The notes below the pieces were generated by a model. It ran no database searches. It was not told where the DNA came from and saw nothing but the letters and a program-made list of their open reading frames with translations. From NCBI RefSeq assembly GCF_002584535.1, contig NZ_NUOT01000008.1, positions 62,001 through 126,000 on the forward strand: a stretch of DNA of 64,000 bases, read 5' to 3'. Positions 1 to 12,823 of the stretch are shown here, in pieces (position 1 is the stretch's first letter; each line of letters starts with the position of its first letter). The stretch is from Bacillus cereus. GTDB lineage: Bacteria; Bacillota; Bacilli; Bacillales; Bacillaceae_G. A program made the translations under genes and the position numbers.

Positions 1-154
1 TGTCTCAAAAGATAAAGATTTTCATGGATTAGGCAATTATCATTATGACAAATTCGGAAATATAGATAATAAATTGATAGATGCTAGTACAGGAAAAGAA
101 ATTTATCAATCTCCGAGATATTCTATTAATGGTGTCGGGGAGGTAAAAGTTATC

Positions 155-433
155 ATGGAATATCTAGAGAAGTCAGCAAACGAAATGAAACAGAGCGCAG
201 AAGCCTTCCGAAACCATATCCCACGGGTAATTGACGAAGTAAAACAGTCTCTAAAATCAACAAAGAGTCAGCGTATGGAAAATAGAATAAATGAACTTTA
301 TCACCTTTTAGATCAGACTAGCCGAGTATATGCTTTAAAGTCTCAAGAAGTTGCAGAGTTTATTAAGAAAAAGGCGGACGAATATAAAAATGCGGACGAA
401 AATTTCCAAGGATTTGGGTGGATAAAAAAATGA
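155..433 (+). CDS. Small helical WXG100/LXG-accessory-like protein
   Basis: The likely start is the ATG at 155, preceded by GGGGAGGT at 137-144, giving 92 residues. The frame is nevertheless open all the way to the left edge, so either a longer protein is cut by the window or an upstream gene in the same frame runs into this one. The protein is predicted almost wholly helical and charged, without signal peptide or membrane segment. Size, helicity and pairing with the next gene resemble the small accessory proteins encoded beside LXG-type polymorphic toxins (YwqH/YwqI type). The stop overlaps the next start in an ATGA arrangement, so translation is coupled. The family call rests on pattern only. 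Confidence 0.5.
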   Translation: MEYLEKSANEMKQSAEAFRNHIPRVIDEVKQSLKSTKSQRMENRINELYHLLDQTSRVYALKSQEVAEFIKKKADEYKNADENFQGFGWIKK

Positions 434-708
434 GACAAATGTACTTTAACGAAGAACATATAGAAGACGCTTTTGAAAGCTTAAACAAATTAATCACATA
501 TATAAATGAAAATCAAGAGCGTATCAACGACATTTATAACCTCGTACAAGCTGGTTGGTCACAAAATGGTGCGGGAAAAAAAGCGACGGAAGATTTAGGG
601 ACCTTACGTAAAGAATTGAACCACGGTATTAATGAAATACACACAAAGAAAAAAGAATTAAGAAATGATTGGGAACTGATGAAAGCTGTAGATAGAAGTT
701 ATAAATAA
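430..708 (+). CDS. WXG100-like small protein
   Basis: This 92-residue helical protein has a central AGWSQNGAG turn, which recalls the W-x-G hairpin between two helices of WXG100/ESAT-6-like proteins. The ATG at 430 overlaps the previous stop and has GGTGG about 8 nt upstream; a GTG at 418 is in frame but poorly placed. WXG100-like proteins are exported by type VII secretion, usually as partners of larger toxins. No LXG toxin follows here: a strong terminator at 807-838 ends the unit, so the partner must be to the left of the window or lost. Exact family uncertain. Confidence 0.5.
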   Translation: MRQMYFNEEHIEDAFESLNKLITYINENQERINDIYNLVQAGWSQNGAGKKATEDLGTLRKELNHGINEIHTKKKELRNDWELMKAVDRSYK

Positions 709-806
709 AAATAGAATTAAAACAATCAAAAAAATTTAGTTAATACTTGTCGTATTAACTTAAATTGAATTATATTCGATTAACAACTAATCATAATCTA
801 AAAACA

Positions 807-838
807 AAAGTCCCTCTCACTCGAGAGGGACTTTCACT
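807..838 (+). terminator. Terminator after the WXG-like pair
   Basis: A perfect 12-bp stem (AAAGTCCCTCTC at 807-818 with its complement at 823-834) has a 4-nt loop. The left flank is A-rich, so it could also stop transcription coming from the right, including the pseudogene at 846-1175. Confidence 0.75.
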
Positions 839-845
839 TTATCAG

Positions 846-1175
846 CTAAATTCTCTTGTATATTTTTTTTACATGCCAATACATTTCTACCTCTTGATCT
901 GTCGCTTTTCTTTTATATAAACCCACGTCATCAACCGCAATCCATACCTAACCTTTTAAATCTCCAAAAAAGTCCCTCTTGAGTTGCTCCGATGTAATTG
1001 CACCTGTTTTAGTAACTATCTCTTCATTCATCAAACTACACTGCCTCTCATCTTCTAATAAAAATACCGATTCCACAAAAGTTGAATCCTTGTGGAATAA
1101 AAATGTGTATTCTTTTGATTCTGCTGGTACTTTGATGATACATCAAACAGATTCGTTAACATCGAAAATTTGCAT
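846..1175 (-). pseudogene. Decayed small hypothetical gene with two in-frame stops
   Basis: Read on the minus strand from an ATG at 1175, one frame of 110 codons looks like a natural soluble protein but is broken by TGA at codon 11 (1143-1145) and TAG at codon 76 (948-950). It ends with TAG at 846-848. The segments between the stops have protein-like composition, for example EEIVTKTGAITSEQLKRDFF and QEVEMYWHVKKI. I do not recognise the family. The gene sits between the WXG-like pair and a toxin remnant, so it may once have belonged to a toxin/immunity island, which is inference only. Confidence 0.55.
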
Positions 1176-1330
1176 TTCCACCGATTACATCTCCTATTAA
1201 CTATTTTGTTATTACATGTAAGATTCTAACAAAGCAATGTTAAGAATATGAAAATTGGAATTTAAAGGTAATATCTTGTGGTATAGTAAAAATACGTTCA
1301 TTGTTACCCATCCGAGGCGTTCTCTTTTGA

Positions 1331-1468
1331 TTGCATCTTTTTTTACGAAAAATTACCTCCACAATAAGAGGACAAACTGTTTCTAATGAAATTTTGAAAG
1401 AAATTAGAACAGAAATAAGAAAAAAAGCTAATGCATTACCTGAAATAAAAATTATAAAAGAGGACTGA
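1331..1468 (+). pseudogene. C-terminal remnant of a larger gene, probably a polymorphic toxin
   Basis: The frame ending in TGA at 1466-1468 is open for only 45 codons after a stop at 1328-1330. Its last ~37 residues (from ITSTIRGQTVSNEIL to PEIKIIKED) have the composition of a protein C-terminus but no start codon with a ribosome binding site. It ends 5 nt before the ATG of an Imm70-like immunity gene, the place where the toxin's C-terminal domain would normally be encoded. The toxin identity is inferred from that position alone. Confidence 0.45.
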
Positions 1469-1473
1469 TAAAA

Positions 1474-1893
1474 ATGGCAGTAGGATTTTCTGTAGATATG
1501 TTTTTTTATGAAGCAGGACACCCTGACTTTCTACACAGTTTTTTCTCAACAGTGTCATACCACTGTGAGCCTGATGGTTGGGGAACTAAATACCCTTTAT
1601 TAATGCAGGATTTATATTTTGAAAGATTAAAATGGCAGGATGTGTCTGCGGCATTAAAAAACGTGGAAGAAATTAGAGAAAAATTGAGCAAAATCCCTCC
1701 ATCAGAGGTAATATGGGATTTTGAAGATATAACAAAAAAACCACCTTATGGAGATAAAATTCCTGCTAAAATAACTAACTTAGCAAACTATCATACTATT
1801 CAAGGAACTTCTTTTTTAGATTTACTAAAAAATGCATTAAAGGAATCAGAGGAATGTAAAATGGATGTAACGATCGAAAAGGTTGGGAGATAA
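1474..1893 (+). CDS. Imm70-like immunity protein
   Basis: The 139-residue soluble protein matches my memory of the Imm70 family of polymorphic-toxin immunity proteins: an N-terminal MAVGFSVDMFFYEAGH segment, a FHSFFST-like stretch (HSFFSTVSYH, about residues 21-30), a GWGTKYPLLM stretch near residues 35-44, and VIWDFEDI near 80-87. It starts at an ATG with AGAGG about 12 nt upstream. Such proteins protect the producing cell by binding the toxin domain encoded just upstream. Here the upstream toxin gene survives only as a 45-codon tail, so this looks like an orphan immunity gene, useful if at all against toxins from neighbours. A Rho-independent terminator follows at 1935-1968. Confidence 0.65.
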   Translation: MAVGFSVDMFFYEAGHPDFLHSFFSTVSYHCEPDGWGTKYPLLMQDLYFERLKWQDVSAALKNVEEIREKLSKIPPSEVIWDFEDITKKPPYGDKIPAKITNLANYHTIQGTSFLDLLKNALKESEECKMDVTIEKVGR

Positions 1894-1934
1894 AATTAGT
1901 AACAAAACCTGTCAGAGTAGAGTGTTATCATAAT

Positions 1935-1968
1935 AAAAATCACTTCAAATGAGGTGATTTTTATTTTT
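1935..1968 (+). terminator. Terminator after the Imm70-like gene
   Basis: A 13-bp stem with one G-U pair (1935-1947 with 1950-1962) and a short loop is followed by a T-rich tail. Confidence 0.75.
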
Positions 1969-2054
1969 GTCTAACAACGAAGAGTTCAACTTGATTGGAG
2001 TTTTAAAAATAAGTTTCTGCAACTCCTTAATCACGGATTTATGGGAATGTAATA

Positions 2055-2084
2055 TTTACAGTTGTTGCATGAGATTGGTATGAT
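2055..2084 (+). promoter_or_regulatory. Candidate sigma-A promoter for the 44-residue gene
   Basis: TTTACA at 2055-2060 and TATGAT at 2079-2084 are separated by 18 bp, with the start codon about 28 bp downstream. The match is by eye. Confidence 0.4.
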
Positions 2085-2112
2085 TTAGGTGTTATTTCAA
2101 GGAGGTCTTTTC

Positions 2113-2247
2113 ATGAGTTATGATCCTATTGCAACGTATGGAACAATTAGCACAGACAGTTCTTATTTAGTGTTCTATTTAAATATAAATAAAACAATTA
2201 GAGATATTCAAATAAAAAGCGAAGGACAGAACCTAAAAAAAGGGTAA
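2113..2247 (+). CDS. Small hypothetical protein, 44 residues
   Basis: The short frame begins with ATG at 2113, 8 nt after a near-perfect AAGGAGGT ribosome binding site, and has a sigma-A-like promoter just upstream. The product begins MSYDPIATYGTISTDSSY and ends with a basic tail. It has no membrane segment and no family I recognise. The strong translation signals argue that it is, or recently was, expressed. It could be the intact start of a longer, now truncated gene. Confidence 0.5.
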   Translation: MSYDPIATYGTISTDSSYLVFYLNINKTIRDIQIKSEGQNLKKG

Positions 2248-2434
2248 AAAACAAGGATTTTCTTTAGTCCGAATATGAAAATATAAGTATTAATAAATAA
2301 TTATGTAAGGATTATAGTATTTAATCTCATTAGTAGTAAATAAATAGTCCAAACCTTTTCCGTATAGTATGAATATTTTATTATAGGGAATTGCTTGTCC
2401 CTAACACTACGTATATATGGAAAGAAGGGATTTT

Positions 2435-2872
2435 ATGTATTCAGATGATTATCATTCATGCGAATCTAGATGTTCATCTAGCAGTCAATTATGTAATGAA
2501 TTTGCGAGAATCTTAGGTGGAGAGGGATCAGTCACTCCGGAGGGAGTATGTTTGGTACAAAAGTTTCGTAATATTAGATTTACGATTCTTGGACGTAGAA
2601 CAAGGTCTCCACTTGTAAACCCTCAATTTTTTTCATTTGAAGATCTGGATAGTAGAGGTAATGCGTTAAATTTAGGAGAAACTGTGCTTTTACAAGAAGA
2701 AATTAACCCGTTATTAACTGAACTTAGAAAAAGAGATATTATAGTTACAGCGATTCATAATCACTGGTTATTTGACGAACCACGGGCAATGTATATGCAC
2801 TTTGAATCTATTGAACCACCATTAGAATTTGCTAGAAAAATAAGAGCAGCATTTAGAGTATTAAGAGGATAG
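2435..2872 (+). CDS. DUF1259-like protein
   Basis: This 145-residue protein has features of the DUF1259 (LppY/LpqO-like) family: an early FARILGGEGSVTPEGVCLV segment, where a gene-product-like ILGG is followed by a beta strand, and a late motif VTAIHNHWLFDEPRAMYMHF, with the family's conserved H-N-H and H. The function of the family is not established. The start at 2435 is chosen because AAGAAGGGA lies just upstream of it, whereas the ATG at 2417 has no site. The N-terminus is Ser/Cys-rich (SCESRCSSSS) with no signal peptide, unlike the secreted family members. The gene stands alone between the preceding gap and a strong terminator at 2885-2916. Confidence 0.65.
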   Translation: MYSDDYHSCESRCSSSSQLCNEFARILGGEGSVTPEGVCLVQKFRNIRFTILGRRTRSPLVNPQFFSFEDLDSRGNALNLGETVLLQEEINPLLTELRKRDIIVTAIHNHWLFDEPRAMYMHFESIEPPLEFARKIRAAFRVLRG

Positions 2873-2884
2873 TCTGATTTTACA

Positions 2885-2916
2885 ACAGGGGGGATTTTAA
2901 TCCTCCCTGTGTTTTA
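2885..2916 (+). terminator. Terminator after the DUF1259-like gene
   Basis: A 12-bp GC-rich stem with one mismatch (2885-2896 with 2899-2910) is followed by GTTTTATTTAT. Confidence 0.8.
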
Positions 2917-2989
2917 TTTATCTTTATGATTTTTAAGTAAAGGACATCTCTAATGCCCTTTTTGGATAGTAATTGCTGTATTATAATTT

Positions 2990-3331
2990 TTATTTATTCC
3001 CTGGAGCAGGTTGATCCACTCCTTTAACATGGTGTTTATGCCCATCATCTTCAGTCGTGTAAAAATCATAATAATGAACATGCATTCCATTTCCAACAGG
3101 AATGGCTGGTCCTGAGTATGCCTTATAATAATGGGTGTGCCCATCCTCAAATAGAACATATCCTTCTGTATAGTGAATATGTCCTCCCTCTTGCGTCGGA
3201 ATTGGTGGTGATGTTACATCCAAACATTGATGTACATGACCATCTGCCACGGATGTATAATCAACAGATCCATGGTTATGATGTGGTACAAATCCGGAAA
3301 CAAAATCATTTTTTCTTACTTTTCTATCCAA
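2990..3331 (-). CDS. YmaF-like His-rich protein
   Basis: The protein contains six H-x-H pairs (HNH, HVH, HIH, HTH, HVH, HKH) about 17-20 residues apart, most preceded by Gly or Asp-Gly, which matches the YmaF family. The spacing suggests a repeated beta-hairpin that could bind metal ions; no function is established. A GTG at 3340 touches the AAGGGGTGG site directly, so the TTG at 3331, about 5 nt downstream of the site, is the more likely start (113 residues). There is no signal peptide or membrane segment. The neighbours give no functional hint. Confidence 0.65.
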   Translation of the reverse strand: MDRKVRKNDFVSGFVPHHNHGSVDYTSVADGHVHQCLDVTSPPIPTQEGGHIHYTEGYVLFEDGHTHYYKAYSGPAIPVGNGMHVHYYDFYTTEDDGHKHHVKGVDQPAPGNK

Positions 3332-3501
3332 TCTACCCACCCCTTGTACATAAAGATTACTTCTATAAACTATATGTTTAGAACAAAAAAGTGATTCTTA
3401 ATAACAACTCATACTTGTATAACCTATACATGTGAGGTTGATATAATGTACCATTGTTAGTAGTATCTAAAAAACACCCTAAATTAAGGATAGATCTTGT
3501 A

Positions 3502-4036
3502 TTATCTAACCCAACGAATATACTCACCAAAATAAATCCATCCGCGATCTTTTACATGAACCCAATCACCTTCACGACCATCAATCTCGTAATCTTTTTG
3601 TTCTAGTACACCTACTACTTTTGAGTTCGTTGTAGAAAATTCACGTAAGCGCACATCAGAACCTCACCATCACGAAGACTATCTTTCGTATCTCCGTTTG
3701 ATGTTCTAAACTTCACTATACTTCCAGTAGCCTTCGAAGTCGTTTGTGTTTCAGTTGCTTTAAAAGCTTTTTTTCAAAATTTCATGTCTGCGAACAGTTT
3801 TCTTTACTTCATCAGAGCTTGTTTCTGCTTGCTCTTCACTGTTTGCAACAACAGAAGTATTATATTCTGGAATACCATGCAATTCACTGATTAAAAAGTG
3901 GATAATAACGGACATTAGACCGTTTTTATCACCGCCGCGCCCTAACATCCACAAGAATTTACGATAGAGTATGCGCCCATTTTGTTCAATAAAAAGAGCA
4001 TCCACGTCAGTAGATGCCCAAATGTGTAGGAGTTTT
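3502..4036 (-). pseudogene. Frameshifted gene with an SH3-like C-terminal segment
   Basis: Three overlapping minus-strand frames join into one protein-like sequence. An N-terminal part reads LHIWASTDVDALF and continues to HEILKK. A frameshift at a poly-A run near 3770 leads into ATETQTTSKATG and then to RDGEV. A second frameshift near 3664 leads into DVRLREFSTTNSKVVGVLEQ and ends GEYIRWVR. The last part (VLEQKDYEIDGREGDWVHV) reads like a bacterial SH3 repeat as found in cell-wall hydrolases. The gene is therefore a dead remnant, perhaps of a phage-type lysin or other wall-binding protein; the parent family is not certain. Confidence 0.55.
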
Positions 4037-4188
4037 CAATGAGTATTGAATAGGACCTTGGAGATCTTGTCCCATACTCCAATATATGCTTGTCCTTCTT
4101 AAAATGTGAAAGAGAGCACTCCCAAAAATTAAGTGCTTTCTCTTGAAAAATTATGGGATAACATATTGAAAACGAACTATCCATACAA

Positions 4189-4461
4189 TTGTATGAATAT
4201 ATGCTTGTTCACATTCCTTGTTATTGTGTTTTTAGATTTATTACGCTTACTACGCTTGCAATTATTCCTTGGTCGGCCTTATTTGTATATCTAGGTTGGA
4301 AGCTTGTAGAAAAGTGGGAGAATATAAACGAAGTAGCTGGCCCCTATGTTAAATATTTTGCTATTACAGCAGTGGCCCTGATTGTTTTCTATTTTGCTGT
4401 AACAATAGTAATGAGAAGACGTAACAAGTGGTTAATTGTAAGGAGTGCTATAAATGTCTGA
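4189..4461 (+). pseudogene. Truncated DedA-family membrane protein (C-terminal fragment)
   Basis: The ~90-residue frame contains a stretch reading IIPWSALFVYLGWKLVEKW, then AGPYVKYF, a hydrophobic helix and a basic end. This is the look of the last third of DedA (SNARE-associated) membrane proteins, which are normally about 200 residues. The first ~15 codons do not match, no convincing ribosome binding site precedes the ATG, and the missing N-terminal two thirds are not found upstream. It is therefore probably a degraded fragment that still carries the translation start of the next gene within its last codons. Confidence 0.5.
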
Positions 4462-4630
4462 TATAATCCGTCTCTTTATTATCATGCTCATTGCAAGTTA
4501 TTTATTTTTCTCCGTAATGATGGAATTTAAAAATCCACAAAAAAGTATGTTCTGGTTCACGATTGAAATCTTGTTTCTTTTGGGAACGTTACTATTAATA
4601 AAAGAATTCTTCATCAAATATGTAACATAA
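4454..4630 (+). CDS. Small membrane protein, 58 residues
   Basis: ATG at 4454 lies 8 nt after AAGGAG and overlaps the end of the DedA-like fragment by 8 nt. The product has two hydrophobic stretches, roughly residues 4-22 and 33-51, joined by a short polar loop (MEFKNPQKS), so it should be a two-pass membrane protein. I do not recognise a family. It could depend on translation of the upstream fragment. Confidence 0.5.
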   Translation: MSDIIRLFIIMLIASYLFFSVMMEFKNPQKSMFWFTIEILFLLGTLLLIKEFFIKYVT

Positions 4631-4713
4631 CTTTCTCTCTTCCTCCCTGAATAAAACTCAATATTCCGCAAATACTGTAGATATAATCTTTCTCCATTCC
4701 CCCATTGGAGCCG

Positions 4714-4752
4714 AGCAGTTAGCCTTTGCTAGCTGCTTTTTTGTTTTTTTCA
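4714..4752 (+). terminator. Terminator at the start of the direct repeat
   Basis: AGCAGTTAGC at 4714-4723 pairs with GCTAGCTGCT at 4728-4737 (one G-U pair), followed by a long T tract interrupted by one G. A near copy is at 7975-8005. Confidence 0.8.
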
Positions 4753-4910
4753 CACTTCTTCCTCAATACTCATATACTATTTTGAATCAAAAATAATATC
4801 TAAGCATTAAAATGAAAGGTATCCTTTTACAACTTTTCAATTGATTCCAAGGCTTATTTCCTCTTAAAGAGCACTGTTCGAAGGTACTCTTTTTATTGTG
4901 ATGTTTTTTA
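4716..4910. repeat. ~195-bp direct repeat, copy 1
   Basis: This segment, from the GCTAGC hairpin to ATTGTGATGTTTTTT, recurs at 7975-8170 at roughly 85-90% identity by eye. It includes two hairpins (GTTAGC/GCTAGC type and AGAGCAC/GTGCTCT type) and no open frame. In this copy the second stem carries a mismatch (GTACTCT). Confidence 0.75.
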
Positions 4911-4934
4911 TAAAATGAAATTTTTGTTAGATAT

Positions 4935-5030
4935 TTACACCTTGATGAGTAACTTACATATATTATCATGTGTGCCACATTCCACTCTCTGAGGCCCTGA
5001 TAAGAGCACGTATATAGTGCTCTTTTTATA
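4935..5030 (+). repeat. Promoter-plus-hairpin cassette, variant D
   Basis: A TTTACACC-like box is followed 17-19 bp later by CATATA, about 45 bp of non-coding sequence, and an AAGAGCAC/GTGCTCTT hairpin (5003-5010 with 5018-5025) with a T tail. It resembles the cassettes at 5070, 6449, 7444 and 8396. It could specify a short RNA. Confidence 0.35.
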
Positions 5031-5069
5031 GTGGATAATTTCAGTATCAAATGGCGTTTTTGTTGATTT

Positions 5070-5172
5070 TTGACACATTTAAACGAAACAAGCATATGTT
5101 ATTGTATAGAGAACATCACTCATAAAAACCCATCTTCCTATGAACACGCTATATTTGTGCTATATTTGATTT
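5070..5172 (+). repeat. Promoter-plus-hairpin cassette, copy A
   Basis: TTGACA at 5070-5075 and CATATG at 5093-5098 are exactly 17 bp apart and are preceded by a GGCGTTTTTGTT box. The following ~50 bp ends in a decayed hairpin (AACACGC/TGTGCT) and a T-rich run. The segment ACAAGCATATGTTATTGTAT is shared with copy B. Confidence 0.4.
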
Positions 5173-5447
5173 TTTAAATAGACATATCCTTTTTACATAT
5201 TTTCAAAAAGGCTGCACACACTATCCATAAGCCATTCGAACTAGCGGTTCACTCCCTCTTTCAATGAGTATGCCATTAGTTAATCTCACAAACTCATGAG
5301 ACCCACAGGCAGGCAACTAAAAATGTTGTCTGCCAAATCATTAACAAATTTTGTATAATCAATGCTGATTTTGTACAGACTCTTTAAAAAGCTATTGACA
5401 TTTCCATAATTTCTCTGACGGACTCCCCACCGTTATCCAAGGGCTTT

Positions 5448-5486
5448 AATAACAGACAACTTTTTCAGTTGTCTGTTATTTTGTTG
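5448..5486 (+). terminator. Strong terminator
   Basis: A perfect 13-14-bp stem (AATAACAGACAAC at 5448-5460 with its complement at 5468-5480) is followed by TTTGTTG. No gene immediately precedes it. Confidence 0.75.
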
Positions 5487-5587
5487 TATAATCCTTTCCC
5501 ATTCACACATACTATTCATGAGTCAATTTACCAATACGAGTCATTTTGTTACTTTTAAAATCTACCTAAGTTAATTTACTCCTCATG

Positions 5588-5613
5588 GGACAAGCGATTT
5601 CGCTTGTCCTATT
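5588..5613. terminator. Hairpin, probable terminator
   Basis: A perfect 10-bp stem (GGACAAGCGA at 5588-5597 with TCGCTTGTCC at 5600-5609) has a 2-nt loop and a short T-rich tail. Confidence 0.55.
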
Positions 5614-5756
5614 TGTAATTAAAACTTTATCTTTATGCCCCTTTCCTAATTCTCTGTATTTTAAATTTATTTTTTTATTTAGTATTTAACCCAAAAATTT
5701 GCACAATATAAAAGATGTTGCTCACTACTATGTGGGTACAAAAGGAGGATTATAAA

Positions 5757-6269
5757 ATGGACAAACGAACAGAGAAAAAAGTTGAAGCTGTGGCACGAAA
5801 AGCTGCTGATTTAGAAGTTTCACAAGAATTAACTAGTCTTAAAGATCAAATTCAGCAGTTACAACAGTCTTTATCTCAAGCATCTCAAGGTCAACAACAA
5901 CAGCCGCAACAAGGATTGCAACAAGCTAACCAACTGATGCAACAGCTTCAACAATTTAGCCAACAGTCTCAACAACAAATGCAACAAGCTGATCAACAAT
6001 TACAACAAACTATCCAACAAGCTATTCAAACATTAAATCAAGGTTTACAGTATCTACAAGCTAATCAGACATTAAGCCAAGTAAATCAAGCTATTTCTCA
6101 GGCTCAATCACAAGTTGGTCAAACGGGTGGACAACAAGGGCAACAAATGGGCGGTCAACAAGGTATGCAAATGGGTAACCAACAAGGGCAGCAAATGGGC
6201 GGTCAACAAGGTATGCAAATGGGTAACCAACAAGGACAGCAAATGGGCGGTCAACAACAATTTCAATAA
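5757..6269 (+). CDS. Gln-rich repeat protein
   Basis: The 170-residue protein has a charged N-terminus (MDKRTEKKVEAVARKAADLE) and then almost only Q, with S, A, L, G and M. A central heptad-like region (LQQANQLMQQLQQ) favours a coiled coil; the C-terminal third consists of GQQMGGQQGMQMGNQQ units. The start at 5757 follows a clear AAAGGAGGAT site; an in-frame ATG at 5715 has none. The DNA of the C-terminal part is a 48-bp tandem repeat with two full copies plus partial ones (about 6120-6255). I recognise no family. Such sequences tend to self-associate, and a spore-surface or matrix role is possible but unproven. A terminator follows at 6390-6419. Confidence 0.7.
   Translation: MDKRTEKKVEAVARKAADLEVSQELTSLKDQIQQLQQSLSQASQGQQQQPQQGLQQANQLMQQLQQFSQQSQQQMQQADQQLQQTIQQAIQTLNQGLQYLQANQTLSQVNQAISQAQSQVGQTGGQQGQQMGGQQGMQMGNQQGQQMGGQQGMQMGNQQGQQMGGQQQFQ
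6120..6255 (+). repeat. 48-bp tandem repeat inside the Gln-rich gene
   Basis: The unit encodes 16 residues (QGMQMGNQQGQQMGGQ). Two nearly identical copies and flanking partial copies differ at only a few third-codon positions, so the array looks recent and likely to vary in copy number. Confidence 0.8.
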
Positions 6270-6389
6270 GCACATTCATGGCAATCCCTACAATAGTAAA
6301 TTTTCTGTATCTTATATAGCAGTAAGCAAACTTCAATTTCTTTTTGTTAGTAATTATTAGTATTAAATAAATAACAATACAAGTTCTTG

Positions 6390-6419
6390 AAAGAGCACTT
6401 TTATATAGTGCTCTTTTTT
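6390..6419 (+). terminator. Terminator after the Gln-rich gene
   Basis: AAAGAGCACT at 6390-6399 pairs perfectly with AGTGCTCTTT at 6407-6416, followed by TTTTTTG. It belongs to the AGAGCAC hairpin family repeated through this region. Confidence 0.8.
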
Positions 6420-6448
6420 GTATACATATTTCACTTCAGTTATTTCGA

Positions 6449-6558
6449 CTTTCACATTTACAATGAAACTAGCATATAAATAATCAATATAAACAAGGAG
6501 ACTTAAAGGCATTGGAATCTTCTTTCTAGGAGCACCTATATCAGATGCTCTTTTTACA
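6449..6558 (+). repeat. Promoter-plus-hairpin cassette, variant H
   Basis: A TTTCACATTTACA segment is followed by AAACTAGCATATA with 18-bp spacing, then about 55 bp and a GAGCACC/GATGCTC hairpin with a T tail (6530-6555). The layout matches copies A-C. An AAGGAG inside it is followed by no worthwhile frame. Confidence 0.35.
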
Positions 6559-6710
6559 TATACAATGTAAATAACGATTTTATTCATTTCACATCAATTT
6601 ACTATTATTAGAAAAGTTAGAAATATTTACTCGGTGTTTTTTCTGAATAATCATGATATTATTCAATTGCTGGCGTTCACCATCCCACGAACTCAGCAAC
6701 TGCATCCATG

Positions 6711-6748
6711 AACTCTGCTCTCGTCGTTGAGAGTAGAGTTTTTATTTA
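6711..6748 (+). terminator. Terminator-type hairpin
   Basis: AACTCTGCTCTC at 6711-6722 pairs with GAGAGTAGAGTT at 6729-6740 (one G-U pair), with a TTTATTTAT tail. No gene immediately precedes it. Confidence 0.65.
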
Positions 6749-6894
6749 TAGAATCATCCCCAATAAACTCTGTATATTATTACAATATGAAATTTTTGTT
6801 TAAATCCATCTTTATTTTTGAATGTATCTTTACTAATACTTTTGTGTTAAAATCCTCTAGGATATTAATCTTCATATTATTTTTTGGAGGCTTT

Positions 6895-7350
6895 ATGAAT
6901 AATCAAAATAACAATGAAACAAATAACATCAATGGACTATTTGCAGTTCTTCAAATAGTGTTACCACTGGTACTACCTATTGTTCTCCCTACAGTTATAA
7001 TTGTAGGAATGAAACAATGGATGCCTAATGACATTGAATATACAAGTATAATGTCACTATTGACGTTATCTATTGGCTTTTTCATATTTGGAATAATCTT
7101 CTCTTTCATATTACGAGTATTCAAACTATCTGAGGAAAAACTAATAGAATTAGGTTTCTTAGGATTCACAATTTCAATTGTTAGTACATTTCTTACGATG
7201 TATGTCGGATATTTTGGGTTAGCAAATCTTAATTTTACAACGGTGAAATTATCCCCTCATGCCGTGTTGATTTTTGCTATTTTATTTACAGTTCTTCTAG
7301 AAATTATCTTTAAATTGATTGATAAATTTGATACATCCGATGAAAGATAA
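6895..7350 (+). CDS. Four-helix membrane protein of unknown function
   Basis: The start at 6895 (MNNQNNNETNN) follows TTGGAGG by 6 nt; longer in-frame starts lack a site and would add an unlikely hydrophobic leader. The 151-residue product has a short Asn-rich cytoplasmic N-terminus and four hydrophobic helices at about residues 17-38, 54-80, 90-112 and 124-143. The end is charged (LIDKFDTSDER). I recognise no family and see no conserved catalytic motif. It has no operon partner; the AGAGC-type hairpin at about 7384-7411 can terminate it. Confidence 0.6.
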   Translation: MNNQNNNETNNINGLFAVLQIVLPLVLPIVLPTVIIVGMKQWMPNDIEYTSIMSLLTLSIGFFIFGIIFSFILRVFKLSEEKLIELGFLGFTISIVSTFLTMYVGYFGLANLNFTTVKLSPHAVLIFAILFTVLLEIIFKLIDKFDTSDER

Positions 7351-7443
7351 GCACTAAAATAAAATACAACAACCGTTATCCAAGAGCGCATACATGAATG
7401 TGCTCTTTTTATTTGCAATTAAAATAGCGTTTTTATTAAAAAC

Positions 7444-7552
7444 TTTTCACATTTATACTGGACAAGCATATGTTATTGTATGGAGATTCTCTACTCATAG
7501 AAATCTACCTTTCTAATCTAAGAGCACGCTTATATGTGTGCTCTTAGATTAT
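7444..7552 (+). repeat. Promoter-plus-hairpin cassette, copy B
   Basis: TTTTCA at 7444-7449 and CATATG at 7467-7472 are 17 bp apart. After about 40 bp there is a perfect 13-bp hairpin (AATCTAAGAGCAC at 7515-7527 with 7538-7550). The core CAAGCATATGTTATTGTATG is shared with copies A and C. A six-codon ATG frame lies inside, without a ribosome binding site, so an untranslated short RNA is the likelier product if any. Confidence 0.4.
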
Positions 7553-7687
7553 TTATTATGAAATAACGATTTTATTCAAAATGACGGTCCTGATTCATTT
7601 GGACACATTTACCAGTATTATTTCCAAAAAGTTCATGTTACGGTTAATTAGTCGAGTACGTCATTACTTGACGATTACCCTTAGGAG

Positions 7688-7713
7688 CCCCGTAGATAAA
7701 CGGGGTTTCTTTT
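7688..7713 (+). terminator. Terminator-type hairpin
   Basis: CCCCGT pairs with ACGGGG across a 6-nt loop, with outer A-T and G-U pairs and a TTTCTTTTATTT tail. Confidence 0.65.
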
Positions 7714-7779
7714 ATTTAAATAACTATTTTGTTCAAATTCTGGATAAATGTTAATATTCTTCATAAAGGAGGTCTACTA

Positions 7780-7872
7780 ATGAAAAAGATTTTTTCAGTT
7801 ATTTTCATAGCAATTTTCCTTTTAATAGTTCTATATTTTGTTGGTATGTCACTTTTTTGGAACCAGCCTTAA
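7780..7872 (+). CDS. 30-residue single-pass membrane peptide
   Basis: ATG at 7780 follows a strong AAAGGAGGT site with 7-nt spacing. The product is a Lys-Lys start, a hydrophobic helix (about residues 4-26) and the end FWNQP. It is too short for a secreted protein after cleavage and lacks the charged tail of known type I toxins. Small membrane peptides of this kind are common in B. cereus-group genomes. No family recognised. Confidence 0.5.
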   Translation: MKKIFSVIFIAIFLLIVLYFVGMSLFWNQP

Positions 7873-7974
7873 GTTAAAATAAATAATAAATTATCACTAT
7901 GATTATTTAATAAATCTTCCGTCAATATAATAGATAACCCATTAAGTTACTTTCTCTATTACCCATGAACCAAA

Positions 7975-8170
7975 CAGTTAGCTTTTGCTAGCTGCTCTTT
8001 TGTTTTTTCACACTTCTCCCTCAATACTCATATGCTATTTTGAATCAAAAAATAATATCTAAGCTATAAACTGAACGGTATCCTTTTACAACTTTTCAAT
8101 TAATTGCAAAGATTCTTTTCCTTTACAGAGCACTGTTCGAAGGTGCTCTTTTTATTGTGATGTTTTTTTT
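7975..8170. repeat. ~195-bp direct repeat, copy 2
   Basis: This is the partner of 4716-4910. It starts with the CAGTTAGC/GCTAGCTG terminator hairpin (7975-7982 with 7987-7994) and ends at ATTGTGATGTTTTTTTT. In this copy the AGAGCAC/GTGCTCT stem is perfect. Confidence 0.75.
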
Positions 8171-8395
8171 AAATAAAATATTCATTAAATTTAGCGTTTT
8201 TATTCTTTTACGGACATACTCAGCTATCAAAAAACAACATACAATATAAAAAATTCACTTCAGAAGGAAAATCTGACTACAAAAGTTTTTCAAAAGATAT
8301 TAGGGTCTTCATCTGGCTTTCAATATCTATTTTTATTTTTCCTTTTCCTGAATCAACATTCACATTCTGCTTCAAAGTGGCGCTTTTGTTTATTT

Positions 8396-8497
8396 TTGAC
8401 ACGCCTTAATGAGACAAGCATACTTTATTGTATGAAGACCCTCTCTCATAGATTGCTATCTTTCTAAGAGCACATTCACACATGTGCTCTTTTTTAT
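8396..8497 (+). repeat. Promoter-plus-hairpin cassette, copy C
   Basis: TTGACA at 8396-8401 and CATACT at 8419-8424 are 17 bp apart, a good sigma-A layout. A perfect 9-bp hairpin (AAGAGCACA at 8466-8474 with TGTGCTCTT at 8483-8491) and a T run follow. An 11-codon ATG frame (MKTLSHRLLSF) lies between them without a ribosome binding site. Confidence 0.4.
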
Positions 8498-8568
8498 CAA
8501 ATAACGTTTTTGTTAAACTATTTATGAATAAGTGTCCATCGAACAGTTATGTCTTCTGTGACTATTTG

Positions 8569-8814
8569 CTACAAATAATATGCAGTTTCATACGGAACCG
8601 TTGAAAAAGGTATCCTATACTGCATAATGTACATTGGATAATAATATTGCAATGAATGATAGTAAGGTTGTATACTTTGTTGCATTTGTTGTGCTTGTAT
8701 CGCTTGTTGCTGTGCTTGTATAGCCTGGTGAACAGCTTGAATTGTACTTTGCGCAGGACCATGCCCACCTAAAGGACGCTTTCGCATTTCATTGTAAAAA
8801 TAACTGGGAAACAT
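8569..8814 (-). CDS. Small Gln/Tyr-rich protein
   Basis: The 81-residue product begins MFPSYFYNEMRKRPLGGHG, has a central Q/A-rich stretch (IQAQQQAIQAQQMQQ) and a Tyr-rich C-terminal third (YYHSLQYYYPMY). ATG at 8814 follows GGTGGGGTG at about 7 nt. Composition of this sort (Q, Y, P, H, without Lys) is typical of spore coat or exosporium-associated proteins, but I recognise no family. It is oriented opposite to the Gln-rich gene at 5757 and shares its low-complexity style. Confidence 0.55.
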   Translation of the reverse strand: MFPSYFYNEMRKRPLGGHGPAQSTIQAVHQAIQAQQQAIQAQQMQQSIQPYYHSLQYYYPMYIMQYRIPFSTVPYETAYYL

Positions 8815-9095
8815 TTTTATTCACCCCACCCTCGTAAATATTCTCACCCGTCACCTTTCATACTATGAACATTGATTTAAAGTTGATAATTTGTGAAACT
8901 TTTTACCTTATCATTCTCTAACCTCTTTCTATTCAAATAACGCTTTCGTCCATTTTATCCAACTGATTTTCCCCCACCCTTTTACTGACTTTTCGGTACA
9001 TAATAAATCCCTTAAATTTTTTAAATTTCGTCCAAGCACCATTTCTATTTCACAAATAATATATATGGACAACTAACAAGGAGAGTGACATACGT

Positions 9096-9566
9096 ATGGC
9101 GGATTATTTTTATGAAAATGGTAAGAAGTGTTATAAAAACCAATATCACTCGTATTCTAGTCAAAAAGAACATAAATGTTTCGTTGAGACTCATACAATT
9201 TCCGGATCGGGAGTAAATTTAACTGGAAATATCCCCCTAGATTTTTTCTTACGCCCTAACACTTCAAGAACTATTTTTGAAGACTTTACCAAAAATCACA
9301 ATAAAACATTAATTCAGATTTCTGCTGCTGGTAATAGTGCCCCTTTTGAAGTAACTATTCGAACAAGAGGATCTCGCATACCAATTACCGCTAGATTAAG
9401 TGAAGAGGATTCACCACGGATATTTCAAGTGGAAGATTTCGAAAGCCTTACTTTCTCAAATACCACTAACAGTCCTAGTGTCGGGAATATATTTATCCAA
9501 AAAACGTTCTGTATTTGCTGTAATGAAAAAGATAATTCTTGTAATGAATGTGACTATGAAGGTTAA
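9096..9566 (+). CDS. Cys-flanked beta-rich protein, possible spore-surface subunit
   Basis: The 156-residue protein follows a GGAGAGTGAC-type site by several nt. A Tyr/Lys/Cys-rich N-terminal arm (KKCYKNQYHSYS) is followed by a predicted all-beta core from about residue 33 (HTISGSGVNLTGNIPLDFFL) to 140, then a Cys-rich end (CICCNEKDNSCNECDYEG). Cysteines at both ends around a beta sandwich recall the self-assembling endospore appendage (Ena, DUF3992) subunits of the B. cereus group, but I see no decisive motif. Other spore-coat or exosporium proteins are possible. A perfect terminator follows at 9581-9609. Confidence 0.55.
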   Translation: MADYFYENGKKCYKNQYHSYSSQKEHKCFVETHTISGSGVNLTGNIPLDFFLRPNTSRTIFEDFTKNHNKTLIQISAAGNSAPFEVTIRTRGSRIPITARLSEEDSPRIFQVEDFESLTFSNTTNSPSVGNIFIQKTFCICCNEKDNSCNECDYEG

Positions 9567-9876
9567 AATTCATCACCAGAAGAATCCTTTATATAAAGGA
9601 TTCTTTTTTCATATCACCATCCAATTATTCACTATTACACCTCCTCATTTCTTAACAAATAACGCTTTTATATGAAATCTGTACACATTTTTGACACATC
9701 CACTATCACAATCCACTGAAAATTCATGATAATATTAATTTGTTGAATACGCCAAATTTCGACATTGCACGACAACAATATCTCCCTTATCGAATCCCTG
9801 TCCCCCAGGGATTTTTCCTTGTATTCATTACTTTTTGTTTCACTAAATTTTCATCCCGAACAAAATTCAAATTTGA
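9567..9876 (+). other. Intergenic region with two terminators
   Basis: Besides the terminator at 9581-9609, this stretch has an AAATAACGCTTTTATATG box near 9658, a TTGACACATC segment near 9699 like the start of the cassettes, and a hairpin at 9793-9813 (AATCCCTG with CAGGGATT) with a TTTCC tail. No gene seen. Confidence 0.5.
9581..9609 (+). terminator. Terminator after the Cys-flanked gene
   Basis: AGAATCCTTT at 9581-9590 pairs perfectly with AAAGGATTCT at 9595-9604, followed by TTTTT. Confidence 0.85.
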
Positions 9877-10011
9877 TTAAAGTAACTGTGTTTTCCGCTC
9901 ATCCATACGAGTTACTTTTCCACTTTTATATACAAAGGACTGTTCCCCATGACCACTTGTTGGTGGCTCTATTGAATGAATTTGTCCATCTTTCACAACA
10001 TTCTCTAGCAT
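9877..10011 (-). pseudogene. DUF3954-like phage protein remnant
   Basis: The minus-strand frame MLENVVKDGQIHSIEPPTSG continuing to SFVYKSGKVTRMDERKTQ resembles small phage proteins of the DUF3954 type (a V-x-DG-x-I...P-x-SG-x-G pattern). A good GGAGGTG site and ATG lie near 10054-10075, but in a different frame, and the intervening sequence has a stop. The N-terminus has therefore probably been frameshifted away. It lies just downstream of another phage-type small gene. Confidence 0.4.
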
Positions 10012-10150
10012 TACGTAGCAATCCACCTATCGATGAATTGCAATATATACTTGTTCCCATATTTGTTCACCTCCGTATTCAGTTTTCAAAGAATTACAAT
10101 AAAATTTATAGAATACATAACTTGTCTATTTTTTATGAAAAAAAGAGGAA

Positions 10151-10324
10151 TTAATCCTCGATACTTTCTTTTGCTTGCATTTCTTTGATGATGGCCCAAC
10201 CAGCCTCGTAATATGCTCGAAGGATGTTTTCAATTTCCTTTTGTGTTTTAGGTTCAGGAGCCACAACATAAACTTTCGTTTTTCCAAATTCATAAGTCGC
10301 TGCATATTCCTCTTGTTGGCTCAT
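10151..10324 (-). CDS. Small phage-type protein, 57 residues
   Basis: The start at 10324 (MSQQEEYAATYEFGKTKVYV) follows AAGAGGTGAC by 5-6 nt. The product has a short beta N-terminus, VVAPEPKTQKEIEN and a C-terminal helix (AYYEAGWAIIKEM). It resembles short uncharacterised proteins from Bacillus phages. The frame extends upstream to a weaker ATG at 10384 with no site; that extra part may be the tail of a lost upstream gene. Function unknown. Confidence 0.5.
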   Translation of the reverse strand: MSQQEEYAATYEFGKTKVYVVAPEPKTQKEIENILRAYYEAGWAIIKEMQAKESIED

Positions 10325-10817
10325 GATGTCACCTCTTGAAGTGCTTTTTATATATTTATGCTTTAGATCAATTGGTACTGCCATTGGAAGTGCTGATATT
10401 TTCCCCCTTTCTTTCTAACTAGTTTATAAGTGCGCTTTTCGCACGTTATATTTTTAAATTTTTTCTACAGTACTTTCTAATGCTTCTGCGATTTTTAAGG
10501 CTACAAAGAAGCAAAAGCAAACAATTTCAAACTACATTTTTGTATTGTTACTTTTATGTCAAGGACATTAAACCTCCCCGAAACAAGAAAAGAATCGATA
10601 TATCTCATTGCAAAAACTTTCAATGTTTCATTCATCCTGCGAAGCAACACTTGTTGCATTATGAAAATCAGCTGCTAGCTTGTCATTTGGAAAATATTTT
10701 TTCACAAACATGTCTAATTACATAATAAAAACTATAACTTCTACTTAAACATTGAATTTTTATAATTTATGTCATGTACTCTTCGTATAATTAATACTGA
10801 ATACAGGAGGTACTGCT
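10325..10817 (+). other. Upstream region of the recombinase
   Basis: About 490 bp hold no complete gene. On the minus strand near 10460-10505 the frame reads VALKIAEALESTVEKI followed by a stop, which looks like the last residues of a Cro/CI-type HTH repressor, so a phage regulator was probably lost here. A -10-like CGTATAAT lies at 10784-10791 ahead of the recombinase; it resembles sporulation sigma-E/K -10 boxes only loosely, and no good -35 is seen. Confidence 0.4.
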
Positions 10818-12365
10818 ATGAGAACCGCGATCTACTTACGTAAATCACGCGCTGATCTAGAAGCCGAAGCACGTGGTGAAGGCGAAACTTTAGCAAAACA
10901 CCGCACTACCCTGCTGAAAATCGCTAAAGAGAAAAGTTTAAATGTTTTAGCTGTTCGTGAGGAAATCGTTTCTGGTGAGAGCTTAGTGAAACGTCCTGAG
11001 ATGTTAGCACTACTCGAAGAAATTGAGGATAACAAATATGACGTTGTTCTTTGCATGGATATGGACCGTTTAGGTCGTGGTGGCATGAAAGAACAAGGAA
11101 TCATTTTAGAGACATTTAAACGCTCCAATACGAAGATTATGACACCTAGGAAGACTTATGACCTTAACGATGAGTGGGACGAAGAATACAGTGAATTTGA
11201 GGCGTTTATGGCGCGTAAAGAGTTAAAGATTATTACCCGCCGGATGCAACGTGGTCGTATTGCAAGTGTAGAGGCTGGCAATTACCTTGGTACGCACGCA
11301 CCATACGGATACGATATCCATCGCTTAAATAAGCGTGAGCGTACGTTAACGATTAATCTAGAAGAAGCCTCTGTTGTCAGAATGATATTTGAATGGTATG
11401 CAAATGAGGATATGGGAGCCTCCATGATTACGAACAAATTAAATCAGCTTGGCTATAAAAGTAAATTAGGGAACGACTGGAATCCATACAGCGTGTTAGA
11501 TATGTTAAAAAATAATATTTACATCGGAAAAGTAACGTGGCAAAAAAGAAAAGAAGTGAAACATCCGGATGCAACGAAACGTAGTTGCACTAGACAAGAT
11601 AAATCAGAATGGATTATTGCAGATGGAAAACATGATTCGATTATCTCAGAAAGTTTATTTGAAAAAGCACAGGAGAAATTAAATACAAGATATCACGTTC
11701 CTTATAATACGAATGGATTAAAGAATCCCCTAGCCGGAATTATCAGATGTGGGAAATGCGGATACAGCATGGTGCAAAGGTATCCAAAGAATCGAAAAAA
11801 GACAATGGATTGTAAACACCGTGGTTGTGAAAACAAATCAAGCTATACAGAATTAATCGAAAGACGTTTACTCGAGGCTTTAAAGGAATGGTATATCAAT
11901 TACAAAGCTGATTTTGCTAAAAATATTCAAGACAGTCTTTCTAAAGAAAAGCAAGTAATAAAAATAAATCAAGCTACATTACGCAAGCTTGAAAAAGAAT
12001 TATTAGATGTTCAAAAGCAAAAAAATAATTTACACGATTTATTAGAACGAGGCGTTTATACGGTTGATATGTTTTTGGAACGTTCTAATGTTGTATCAGA
12101 TCGCATGAATGAAATTACTGACATGATGGAGAACCTCCAAAAGGAAATTAATACTGAAATAACAAAGGAACGCGTAAAAAAAGATACGATTCCTCAAGTA
12201 GAGCATGTATTAAATCTTTATTTCAAAACAGATGATCCAATGAAAAAGAATAGCCTGTTAAAGTCTGTTCTGAAAAAAGCTATTTACACGAAAGAAAAAT
12301 GGCAAAGGCTCGACGATTTCAAGCTTGTGCTCTACCCTAAGCTCCCTAAAGATGGCGACAAATAA
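10818..12365 (+). CDS. Large serine recombinase (site-specific integrase/excisionase)
   Basis: The 515-residue protein has the three domains of large serine recombinases. The resolvase domain starts at once (AIYLRKSR, catalytic Ser10 with Arg8) and contains DMDRLGRGG. A recombinase domain follows from about residue 170 (PYGYDI) to 260. A zinc ribbon has C311-x2-C314 and C332-x4-C337, and a coiled coil of about residues 370-450 ends in a lysine-rich tail. The start has AGGAGGT 8 nt upstream. These enzymes join att sites through a Ser-DNA link. The gene ends 17 bp from the broken dpaB frame, so it almost certainly recombines that junction. The layout parallels spoIVCA of skin and the spoVFB-intervening element; whether it also acts in phage-style integration is unknown. 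Confidence 0.93.
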   Translation: MRTAIYLRKSRADLEAEARGEGETLAKHRTTLLKIAKEKSLNVLAVREEIVSGESLVKRPEMLALLEEIEDNKYDVVLCMDMDRLGRGGMKEQGIILETFKRSNTKIMTPRKTYDLNDEWDEEYSEFEAFMARKELKIITRRMQRGRIASVEAGNYLGTHAPYGYDIHRLNKRERTLTINLEEASVVRMIFEWYANEDMGASMITNKLNQLGYKSKLGNDWNPYSVLDMLKNNIYIGKVTWQKRKEVKHPDATKRSCTRQDKSEWIIADGKHDSIISESLFEKAQEKLNTRYHVPYNTNGLKNPLAGIIRCGKCGYSMVQRYPKNRKKTMDCKHRGCENKSSYTELIERRLLEALKEWYINYKADFAKNIQDSLSKEKQVIKINQATLRKLEKELLDVQKQKNNLHDLLERGVYTVDMFLERSNVVSDRMNEITDMMENLQKEINTEITKERVKKDTIPQVEHVLNLYFKTDDPMKKNSLLKSVLKKAIYTKEKWQRLDDFKLVLYPKLPKDGDK

Positions 12366-12382
12366 GCGTTTGCTTTTTGTCG

Positions 12383-12823
12383 TCATCCTCTTGGTGTAAT
12401 TAGGTTTACACCATTTAGACCAAGAGCATCATTTGTCGAAACAGCTAATACAACGGGTTTCCCATTCCGAAGCGTTGCCTTTGCTGCCATTAGTACCGGA
12501 GAATCTGTCATCGCATTAGCAAATTTACTCATTGAATTTCCTGTTAGTGGAGCAATCACCATACAATCTAATGGTATTTTGGGACCAAGTGGTTCTGCCC
12601 CTACGATAGAATTAATAACCTTATTTCCTGTTATCTCCTCAATTCTTTCAATCCACTCTGCCCCTTCACCAAATCTAGTATTTGTTGTTTGTACAGTGTA
12701 TGAAACAACTGGCAGTACTTCCACCCCCTCTGCAATCAGCTTTTCTACATGTGGCATAACTTCTGCATACGTACAATGCGAACCTGTAAATCCAAAGCCA
12801 ATCCGCTTCCCTTTCAAACTCAT
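12383..12823 (-). pseudogene. dpaB: Dipicolinate synthase subunit B, 5' part (interrupted)
   Basis: DpaB (SpoVFB) is the flavoprotein-like subunit that with DpaA makes dipicolinic acid from the lysine pathway in the sporulating mother cell. The N-terminal ~141 residues are intact, including the GFGFTGSHCTY nucleotide-binding start and the APLTGNSMSKFANAM segment. After GLNGVNL the frame enters the element and ends ITPRG, giving 146 residues against about 200 for the family. The missing C-terminal ~55 residues are not in the window. The gene overlaps dpaA by 4 nt and has its own AGAGGAGAA site. If the element is precisely excised the full gene is restored, as reported for a spoVFB-intervening element; otherwise dipicolinate synthesis would fail. 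Confidence 0.92.
12392..12413. promoter_or_regulatory. Candidate attachment/crossover site in dpaB
   Basis: TGGTGTAA at 12392-12399 and TTACACCA at 12406-12413 are a perfect 8-bp inverted repeat around the 6-bp centre TTAGGT. It lies exactly where the dpaB frame leaves its family sequence (native through Asn-Gly-Val-Asn-Leu). Serine recombinases act on short imperfect dyads with a 2-bp central crossover, so this is the likely att core. The matching site should lie at the unseen left end. Confidence 0.6.

Follow-up and report, generated by a model that had tools for sequence, protein, structure and literature searches.

A recombinase-bearing element interrupts the sporulation gene dpaB of Bacillus cereus and has three-gene relatives in a related family

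The closest described counterpart of the locus considered here is vfbin, a phage-derived element that intervenes in spoVFB (dpaB) of Bacillus weihenstephanensis KBAB4 (Abe et al. 2013) and is excised to rebuild the gene (PMC4191935, PMC5595907, PMC10747680), its serine recombinase being reported as expressed specifically in sporulation (PMC5595907). We have analysed a 64-kb stretch of B. cereus contig NZ_NUOT01000008.1 (the window, by which we mean this whole stretch) in which dpaB is interrupted by an element that bears its own recombinase, with the 5′ part of the gene ending at residue 141. In our view the insert is very probably a decayed prophage and a dpaB-intervening element of the vfbin kind, which its own recombinase would excise in the sporulating mother cell so that dpaB is rebuilt.

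Other described systems share some of these features. The skin element of B. subtilis differs in its target, which is sigK, whereas the insertion here lies in dpaB; outside the dpaB group, the next relatives of the window recombinase lie mostly beside sigK halves (46-55% identical), and several of them are accompanied by a relative of the small open reading frame (ORF) discussed below. SPbeta (SprA/SprB; spsM remnants in B. subtilis and B. amyloliquefaciens FZB42) uses a recombinase of the same large serine family, and its integrase YokA (PDB 9dxh) matches that of the window with an expectation value (E) of 1.4e-45, but the recombinases of SPbeta-like phages are only about 28% identical to the window's and their target is spsM. 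In B. amyloliquefaciens the spsM prophage remnants are much reduced, and the one in FZB42 is excised in sporulation (PMC4191935); like the element proposed here, these are prophages decayed to an element excised only in sporulation (PMC4191935). The gin element in gerE of B. cereus ATCC 10987 likewise leaves a gene of the mother cell through the action of a serine recombinase and the small factor GirX (PMC5595907), but is unlike the window element in its size (28.6 kb), its three recombinases, its lack of phage genes and the gene that it occupies (PMC5595907).

The split gene and its junction

The features that define the locus are as follows.
12401 to 12823, minus strand: 5′ part of dpaB (spoVFB), residues 1-141 of about 199, from family and PDB matches
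12383 to 12400, minus strand: last five codons and stop of the truncated frame, mostly element DNA, differing from intact relatives
12366 to 12420, no strand: attachment-site junction forming one element end (element arm, short core, dpaB half-site), seen in six of 38 IMG/VR records
10818 to 12365, plus strand: large serine recombinase of 515 amino acids (aa) adjoining the junction, with Pfam domains Resolvase, Recombinase and Zn_ribbon_recom
1 to 12400, no strand: visible portion of the intervening element, its far end outside the window, from the junction, G+C content and phage relics
12820 to 13722, minus strand: dpaA (spoVFA), intact, the upstream partner of dpaB, from NCBIfam TIGR02853 (residues 4-289 of 300)
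3654 to 3996, minus strand: frame-broken fragment of a phage terminase large subunit, from phrog_9 (E=3.6e-12 for 3760-4005)
9096 to 9566, plus strand: cargo ORF of a phage family of unknown function, from phrog_26176 (E=3e-51)

The minus-strand ORF at 12383-12823 encodes 146 aa, in which 141 residues of the dpaB family run to GLNGVNL and are followed by five foreign residues (ITPRG) and a stop. In a profile search this ORF matched positions 1-137 of 187 in the NCBIfam dpaB model (TIGR02852) and positions 1-112 of 162 in the Pfam Flavoprotein model, and its alignment with DpaB of known structure (PDB 3mcu) stops at residue 142, which is Ile in the window and Met in 3mcu. Full-length DpaB in intact relatives reaches about residue 199, and about 58 residues are thus missing from the window frame. 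The stop codons of the truncated dpaB and of the recombinase are 17 nucleotides (nt) apart. A preliminary description of this DNA had proposed that the dpaB frame fits its family up to NGVNL and then continues for five unrelated codons, that a large serine recombinase ends 17 bp beyond and that the gene is split by a recombinase-bearing element, and all three statements are borne out by these matches and by the comparisons that follow.

A recombinase 87-96% identical to that of the window was found in 38 IMG/VR records (9-43 kb long; loci L010-L047 in our numbering), where it occupies the end of the record or lies close to it. Most of these records end at the recombinase stop; six extend further, all with the window's junction as far as they can be read, with L031 containing the entire 5′ part of dpaB, L043 containing some bases of it and four more stopping at the core. 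The recombinase is 515 codons long in 39 of 39 copies, with a median ratio of non-synonymous to synonymous substitutions (dN/dS) of 0.052. Between the window and L031, dN was 0.035 and dS 1.36 for the 5′ part of dpaB, and 0.065 and 0.76, respectively, for dpaA. The 5′ part of dpaB had one relative in viral_contigs, which is the record of L031, the 3′ half had two matches there (67 and 51% identity), dpaA had three partial matches in phages (36-41%), and no recombinase of at least 60% identity was found in the phage and plasmid collections.

Taken from the window by itself, where one element end and nothing more is visible, the locus might be an assembly chimera of dpaB and an unrelated prophage. 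Such an explanation is almost certainly wrong, as the same junction recurs in L031 and L043 and 11 of the 19 related genomes described below have dpaB interrupted no more than one codon away. It could also be argued, from the intact dpaA and a frame that stays open as far as the junction, that the truncated DpaB already works or can do without its last residues; this is most improbable, because the cut falls inside the flavoprotein domain and purifying selection acts on the 3′ half in the 11 split relatives.

As far as it is visible, the element is best read as a decayed prophage, because its terminase is broken and kindred records carry head and packaging genes. Terminase, portal and major head genes were present in both of the kin records tested (L192 and L193), and a tape-measure gene was tested and present in one of them; the terminase relic of the window, in two pieces, is 72-73% identical to the terminase of L193. 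The approximately 12 kb beyond the recombinase had been described as accessory, which is right and can be sharpened in these terms. With an insertion within the coding region of spoVFB/dpaB, an element-encoded serine recombinase adjoining the junction and phage-related genes in the form of the terminase relic and the phrog_26176 ORF, the window element belongs to the known vfbin kind. The earlier likening to vfbin of KBAB4 was therefore apt as regards the gene, the phage derivation and the serine recombinase (PMC4191935, PMC5595907, PMC10747680), the likeness being one of description.

Both halves of dpaB in a related family

In genome samples of the phylum (398 genomes) and the order (397), the closest DpaB was not above 80% and 85% identical, respectively. 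The family of genome G1023 proved informative in that 11 of its 19 genomes carry a recombinase 55-57% identical to that of the window, and in all 11 dpaB is cut directly beside it (NGTNLM), at most one codon away from where the window's dpaB is cut. Every one of the 19 genomes has a single match for each of the two parts of dpaB, 5′ and 3′, and in the other eight genomes the two matches are contiguous. In 10 split genomes a single contig holds the element with a half on either side; in G1001 the halves stand at the ends of two contigs, and the element is divided between these. Nine elements measure 2,778-3,042 bp and that of G1044 measures 9,227 bp. Three genes are common to all 11, namely the recombinase, an ORF of about 60 aa and an ORF of 178 aa, and the ORF lists of two short elements hold little besides these, with the recombinase as the sole phage gene seen. 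The 178-aa protein had no match among PDB sequences (best E 0.28).

The ends of these elements are also alike. Ten of the 11 elements have a 9-bp core at each end, while at one end of the G1044 element eight of the nine bases are kept, and the same core occurs once in the intact dpaB of G957 and of G1143, the two intact genes of the group. The element arms that flank the core are inverted repeats of each other; those of G1044 depart from the arms of the other elements, and do so in both arms together. A core with inverted-repeat arms is the layout expected for the attachment sites of serine recombinases.

We estimated dN/dS by the method of Nei and Gojobori, taking medians over 55 pairs for each gene in the split genomes, pairs that are not independent of one another. 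The values were 0.015 for the 5′ half of dpaB, 0.050 for the 3′ half and 0.10 for the recombinase; purifying selection on each half of dpaB is strong in these genomes. A gene that is never rebuilt would not be expected to show such low ratios, so the halves appear to be alive, and it is because they are single-copy and selected in all 11 split genomes that we take dpaB to be most probably rebuilt rather than dead. The preliminary description had left a choice between a defective strain and a gene rebuilt by excision, and these relatives, which keep both halves, favour rebuilding.

Two further observations concern these elements. Between the small ORF and the recombinase lies a divergent promoter region in which the block GGACTAACC is invariant in 11 of 11 loci (L163-L173), and a conserved -10-like block stands upstream of the recombinase. 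In the 9.2-kb dpaB element of G1044, positions 2043-8033 of locus L172 hold ORFs that by eye resemble surface proteins, together with a Mga-type regulator, these additional ORFs having the 178-aa ORF on one side and the small ORF on the other.

Rebuilding of dpaB and a candidate directionality factor

Phage serine recombinases require a directionality factor for excision (PMC5595907). Since only the small ORF and the 178-aa ORF remain conserved beside the recombinase in the short elements, one or other of them might be expected to supply that factor. Two features of the window bear on this.
10151 to 10324, minus strand: ORF of 57 aa, divergent from the recombinase, candidate recombination directionality factor, from its conservation
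10325 to 10817, no strand: stretch between this ORF and the recombinase, partly like a gene in L010 by sequence likeness

The 57-aa ORF corresponds to Met21 onward of a 77-aa frame at 10151-10384, which as called probably starts too early. Both Met21 and Met1 are kept in 39 of 39 copies, and the start at Met21 is preferred because dN/dS is 1.2 for residues 1-20 (324 of 741 pairs usable) and 0.22 for residues 21-77. Relatives of the small ORF were found at all 38 IMG/VR loci and in all 11 split-dpaB relatives. Among 35 further distinct recombinase loci 15 had one, in three cases only at E values of 1e-4 to 6e-3; as most of these further loci reach just 1.5 kb past the recombinase, the misses carry little meaning. 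The small ORF adjoins and diverges from the recombinase both in the window and in the short elements. No family match was obtained in Pfam, PHROGs or NCBIfam, and none among PDB sequences (best E 0.14). On this pattern of conservation we regard the 57-aa ORF as a candidate recombination directionality factor, and an unnamed protein of about 57 aa that accompanies recombinases in dpaB elements and in many sigK elements is apparently new.

The sequence of events that we propose would begin with a prophage integrating through its serine recombinase at a site inside dpaB, leaving two halves. Vegetative cells and the germ line would keep the gene split, whilst in the sporulating mother cell the element-encoded recombinase, with a small directionality factor for which the 57-aa ORF is the best candidate, would excise the element. 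A single dpaB frame would thereby be restored and dipicolinate made, and the spore would inherit the unexcised copy.

Several points weigh against this proposal. The 3′ part of dpaB was looked for across the whole window and not found, and so the strain's own 3′ half is unseen; it was likewise found in none of the 38 IMG/VR relatives, which are trimmed records, whereas the same query found it in 19 of 19 genomes of the related family. No second attachment arm was found in the trimmed IMG/VR records, the pattern occurring only in the six that read past the recombinase and at that end, and dpaB itself is readable past the recombinase in only two of the 38, the dpaB label of the others being assumed. 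That the 3′ half of this strain lies at the other end of the element, that the element is excised, that it leaves only in sporulation (a timing taken from the literature) and that the small ORF has the proposed role are inferences. As to the small ORF, Skr, the directionality factor of skin, is encoded by a 64-aa ORF just upstream of spoIVCA that overlaps its start (PMC6957869), whereas the window's candidate is divergent from its recombinase, and in the IMG/VR loci it lies 1.5-4.3 kb away. Its predicted structural model is modest (predicted local distance difference test, pLDDT, 74.7; predicted template modelling score, pTM, 0.40) and had no fold match (best E 0.21).

The unseen 3′ half and the visibly decayed element, with its broken terminase, are what one would also expect of a strain that is simply defective, with dpaB disrupted, excision lost and spores made without dipicolinate. 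We think this unlikely, because the recombinase and the small ORF are both open and belong to families under purifying selection, because the 5′ part of dpaB differs from that of L031 so much more at synonymous than at other sites (dS 1.36, dN 0.035) and because the split genes of the 11 relatives remain under selection. If the gene is indeed rebuilt, then the annotation of dpaB as truncated in genomes of this sort does not necessarily point to a spore defect.

The recombinase lineage and further content of the elements

In a tree of 64 recombinases, all 30 that are labelled dpaB fall on one side of a branch (support 100/94), where they form two groups, that of the window and that in which both halves are seen; the other 34 comprise 22 that lie beside sigK halves and 12 unclassified. 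The tree is midpoint-rooted, its bootstrap was not fully settled (correlation 0.987), and it took 18 of the 38 IMG/VR recombinases, rows that carry the dpaB label by assignment. Left out were L057, L061, L066 and L082 (repeats), L009 (partial) and L183-L191. Counts of recombinases in the large genome samples are lower bounds, as at most three candidates were scored per genome. In the order sample at least 19 of 397 genomes have a recombinase at E 1e-120 or better; 10 of these belong to the split-dpaB group, and the remaining nine loci (L183-L191) comprise five beside sigK halves and four unclassified, one of which has only 23 nt of flank.

Within the related family, distances between recombinases and between dpaA genes correlate at 0.99 (11 genomes) and 0.975 (10 genomes), with none of 5000 permutations as high, and the deep branches are ordered alike in the recombinase and host trees, so that element and host diverge in step. 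In the host tree G1143, with an intact dpaB, lies outside the split group, whilst G957, also intact, groups with G1044; this grouping is weakly supported (80/61), and both clean loss and separate gain are possible for G957.

This history bears on whether dpaB is simply an ordinary prophage attachment site, devoid of any developmental role and left only on induction. The terminase, portal and major head genes of L192 and L193 would suit such a view. It is very unlikely, as the short elements have no phage gene that we could see except the recombinase and diverge in step with their hosts, and both dpaB halves are selected, which would require regular repair in sporulating cells. By analogy with SPbeta (PMC4191935), intact phages of this lineage may do both, leaving dpaB on induction as well as by developmental excision.

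Set beside the phage-derived vfbin, the short elements of the related family measure about 2.8 kb and have no phage gene seen besides the recombinase, and three-gene, vertically inherited mini-elements in dpaB are apparently new: searches of an open-access library turned up no account of dpaB elements on a kilobase scale that are inherited across species, although Abe et al. (2013) may hold more. We are evenly divided on a broader reading, in which one lineage of dpaB-element recombinases would span tailed prophages and a three-gene, 2.8-kb device (recombinase, candidate factor of about 60 aa and 178-aa orphan), the latter being a domesticated programmed deletion that is inherited vertically through at least nine species and obligatory for sporulation there, with a factor family common to dpaB and sigK elements. 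On that reading, a gene split in every generation can stay functional over the divergence of many species. The short elements cut the system to three genes, which makes the minimal parts of a developmentally timed excision (recombinase, directionality factor and sites) testable.

The remaining content of the window element includes a further cargo ORF.
1474 to 1893, plus strand: cargo ORF of the immunity protein family Imm70, from Pfam PF15601 (E=9.5e-40)

Before it, at 74-708, lie two small ORFs that by eye resemble LXG-type secreted-protein partners, and together with the Imm70 ORF these are possibly the element's competition cargo. Further ORFs with Pfam matches in the 12.4 kb left of the junction are those assigned to PF07485 and YmaF. 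The ORF at 5715-6269 is rich in glutamine and methionine and has tandem repeats (a 48-bp unit at 6132-6257, with 97% matches); stretches related to it occur in several IMG/VR elements. In 2-kb steps the G+C content is slightly lower in the element, at 0.31-0.36 left of the junction against 0.35-0.39 to its right, where the genes beyond dpaA are by appearance ordinary chromosomal ones.

Among other loci, we considered the dpaB of Aneurinibacillus (L049) as a shortened gene and rejected it, as its tail in this draft assembly reads by eye as a frameshifted ordinary end. In Aneurinibacillus tyrosinisolvens (L009, positions 8825-11882) a sigK-intervening element of about 2.4 kb has sigK halves at both ends and contains the small ORF, a helix-turn-helix ORF and the recombinase, which is in two frames in that assembly. 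In G815 (L185, positions 14-1468) a recombinase of the family is flanked on one side by an ORF for an IrrE-type peptidase and on the other by a 484-aa ORF. The latter is distinct from sigK and dpaB, lacks a Pfam match and is possibly another target gene.
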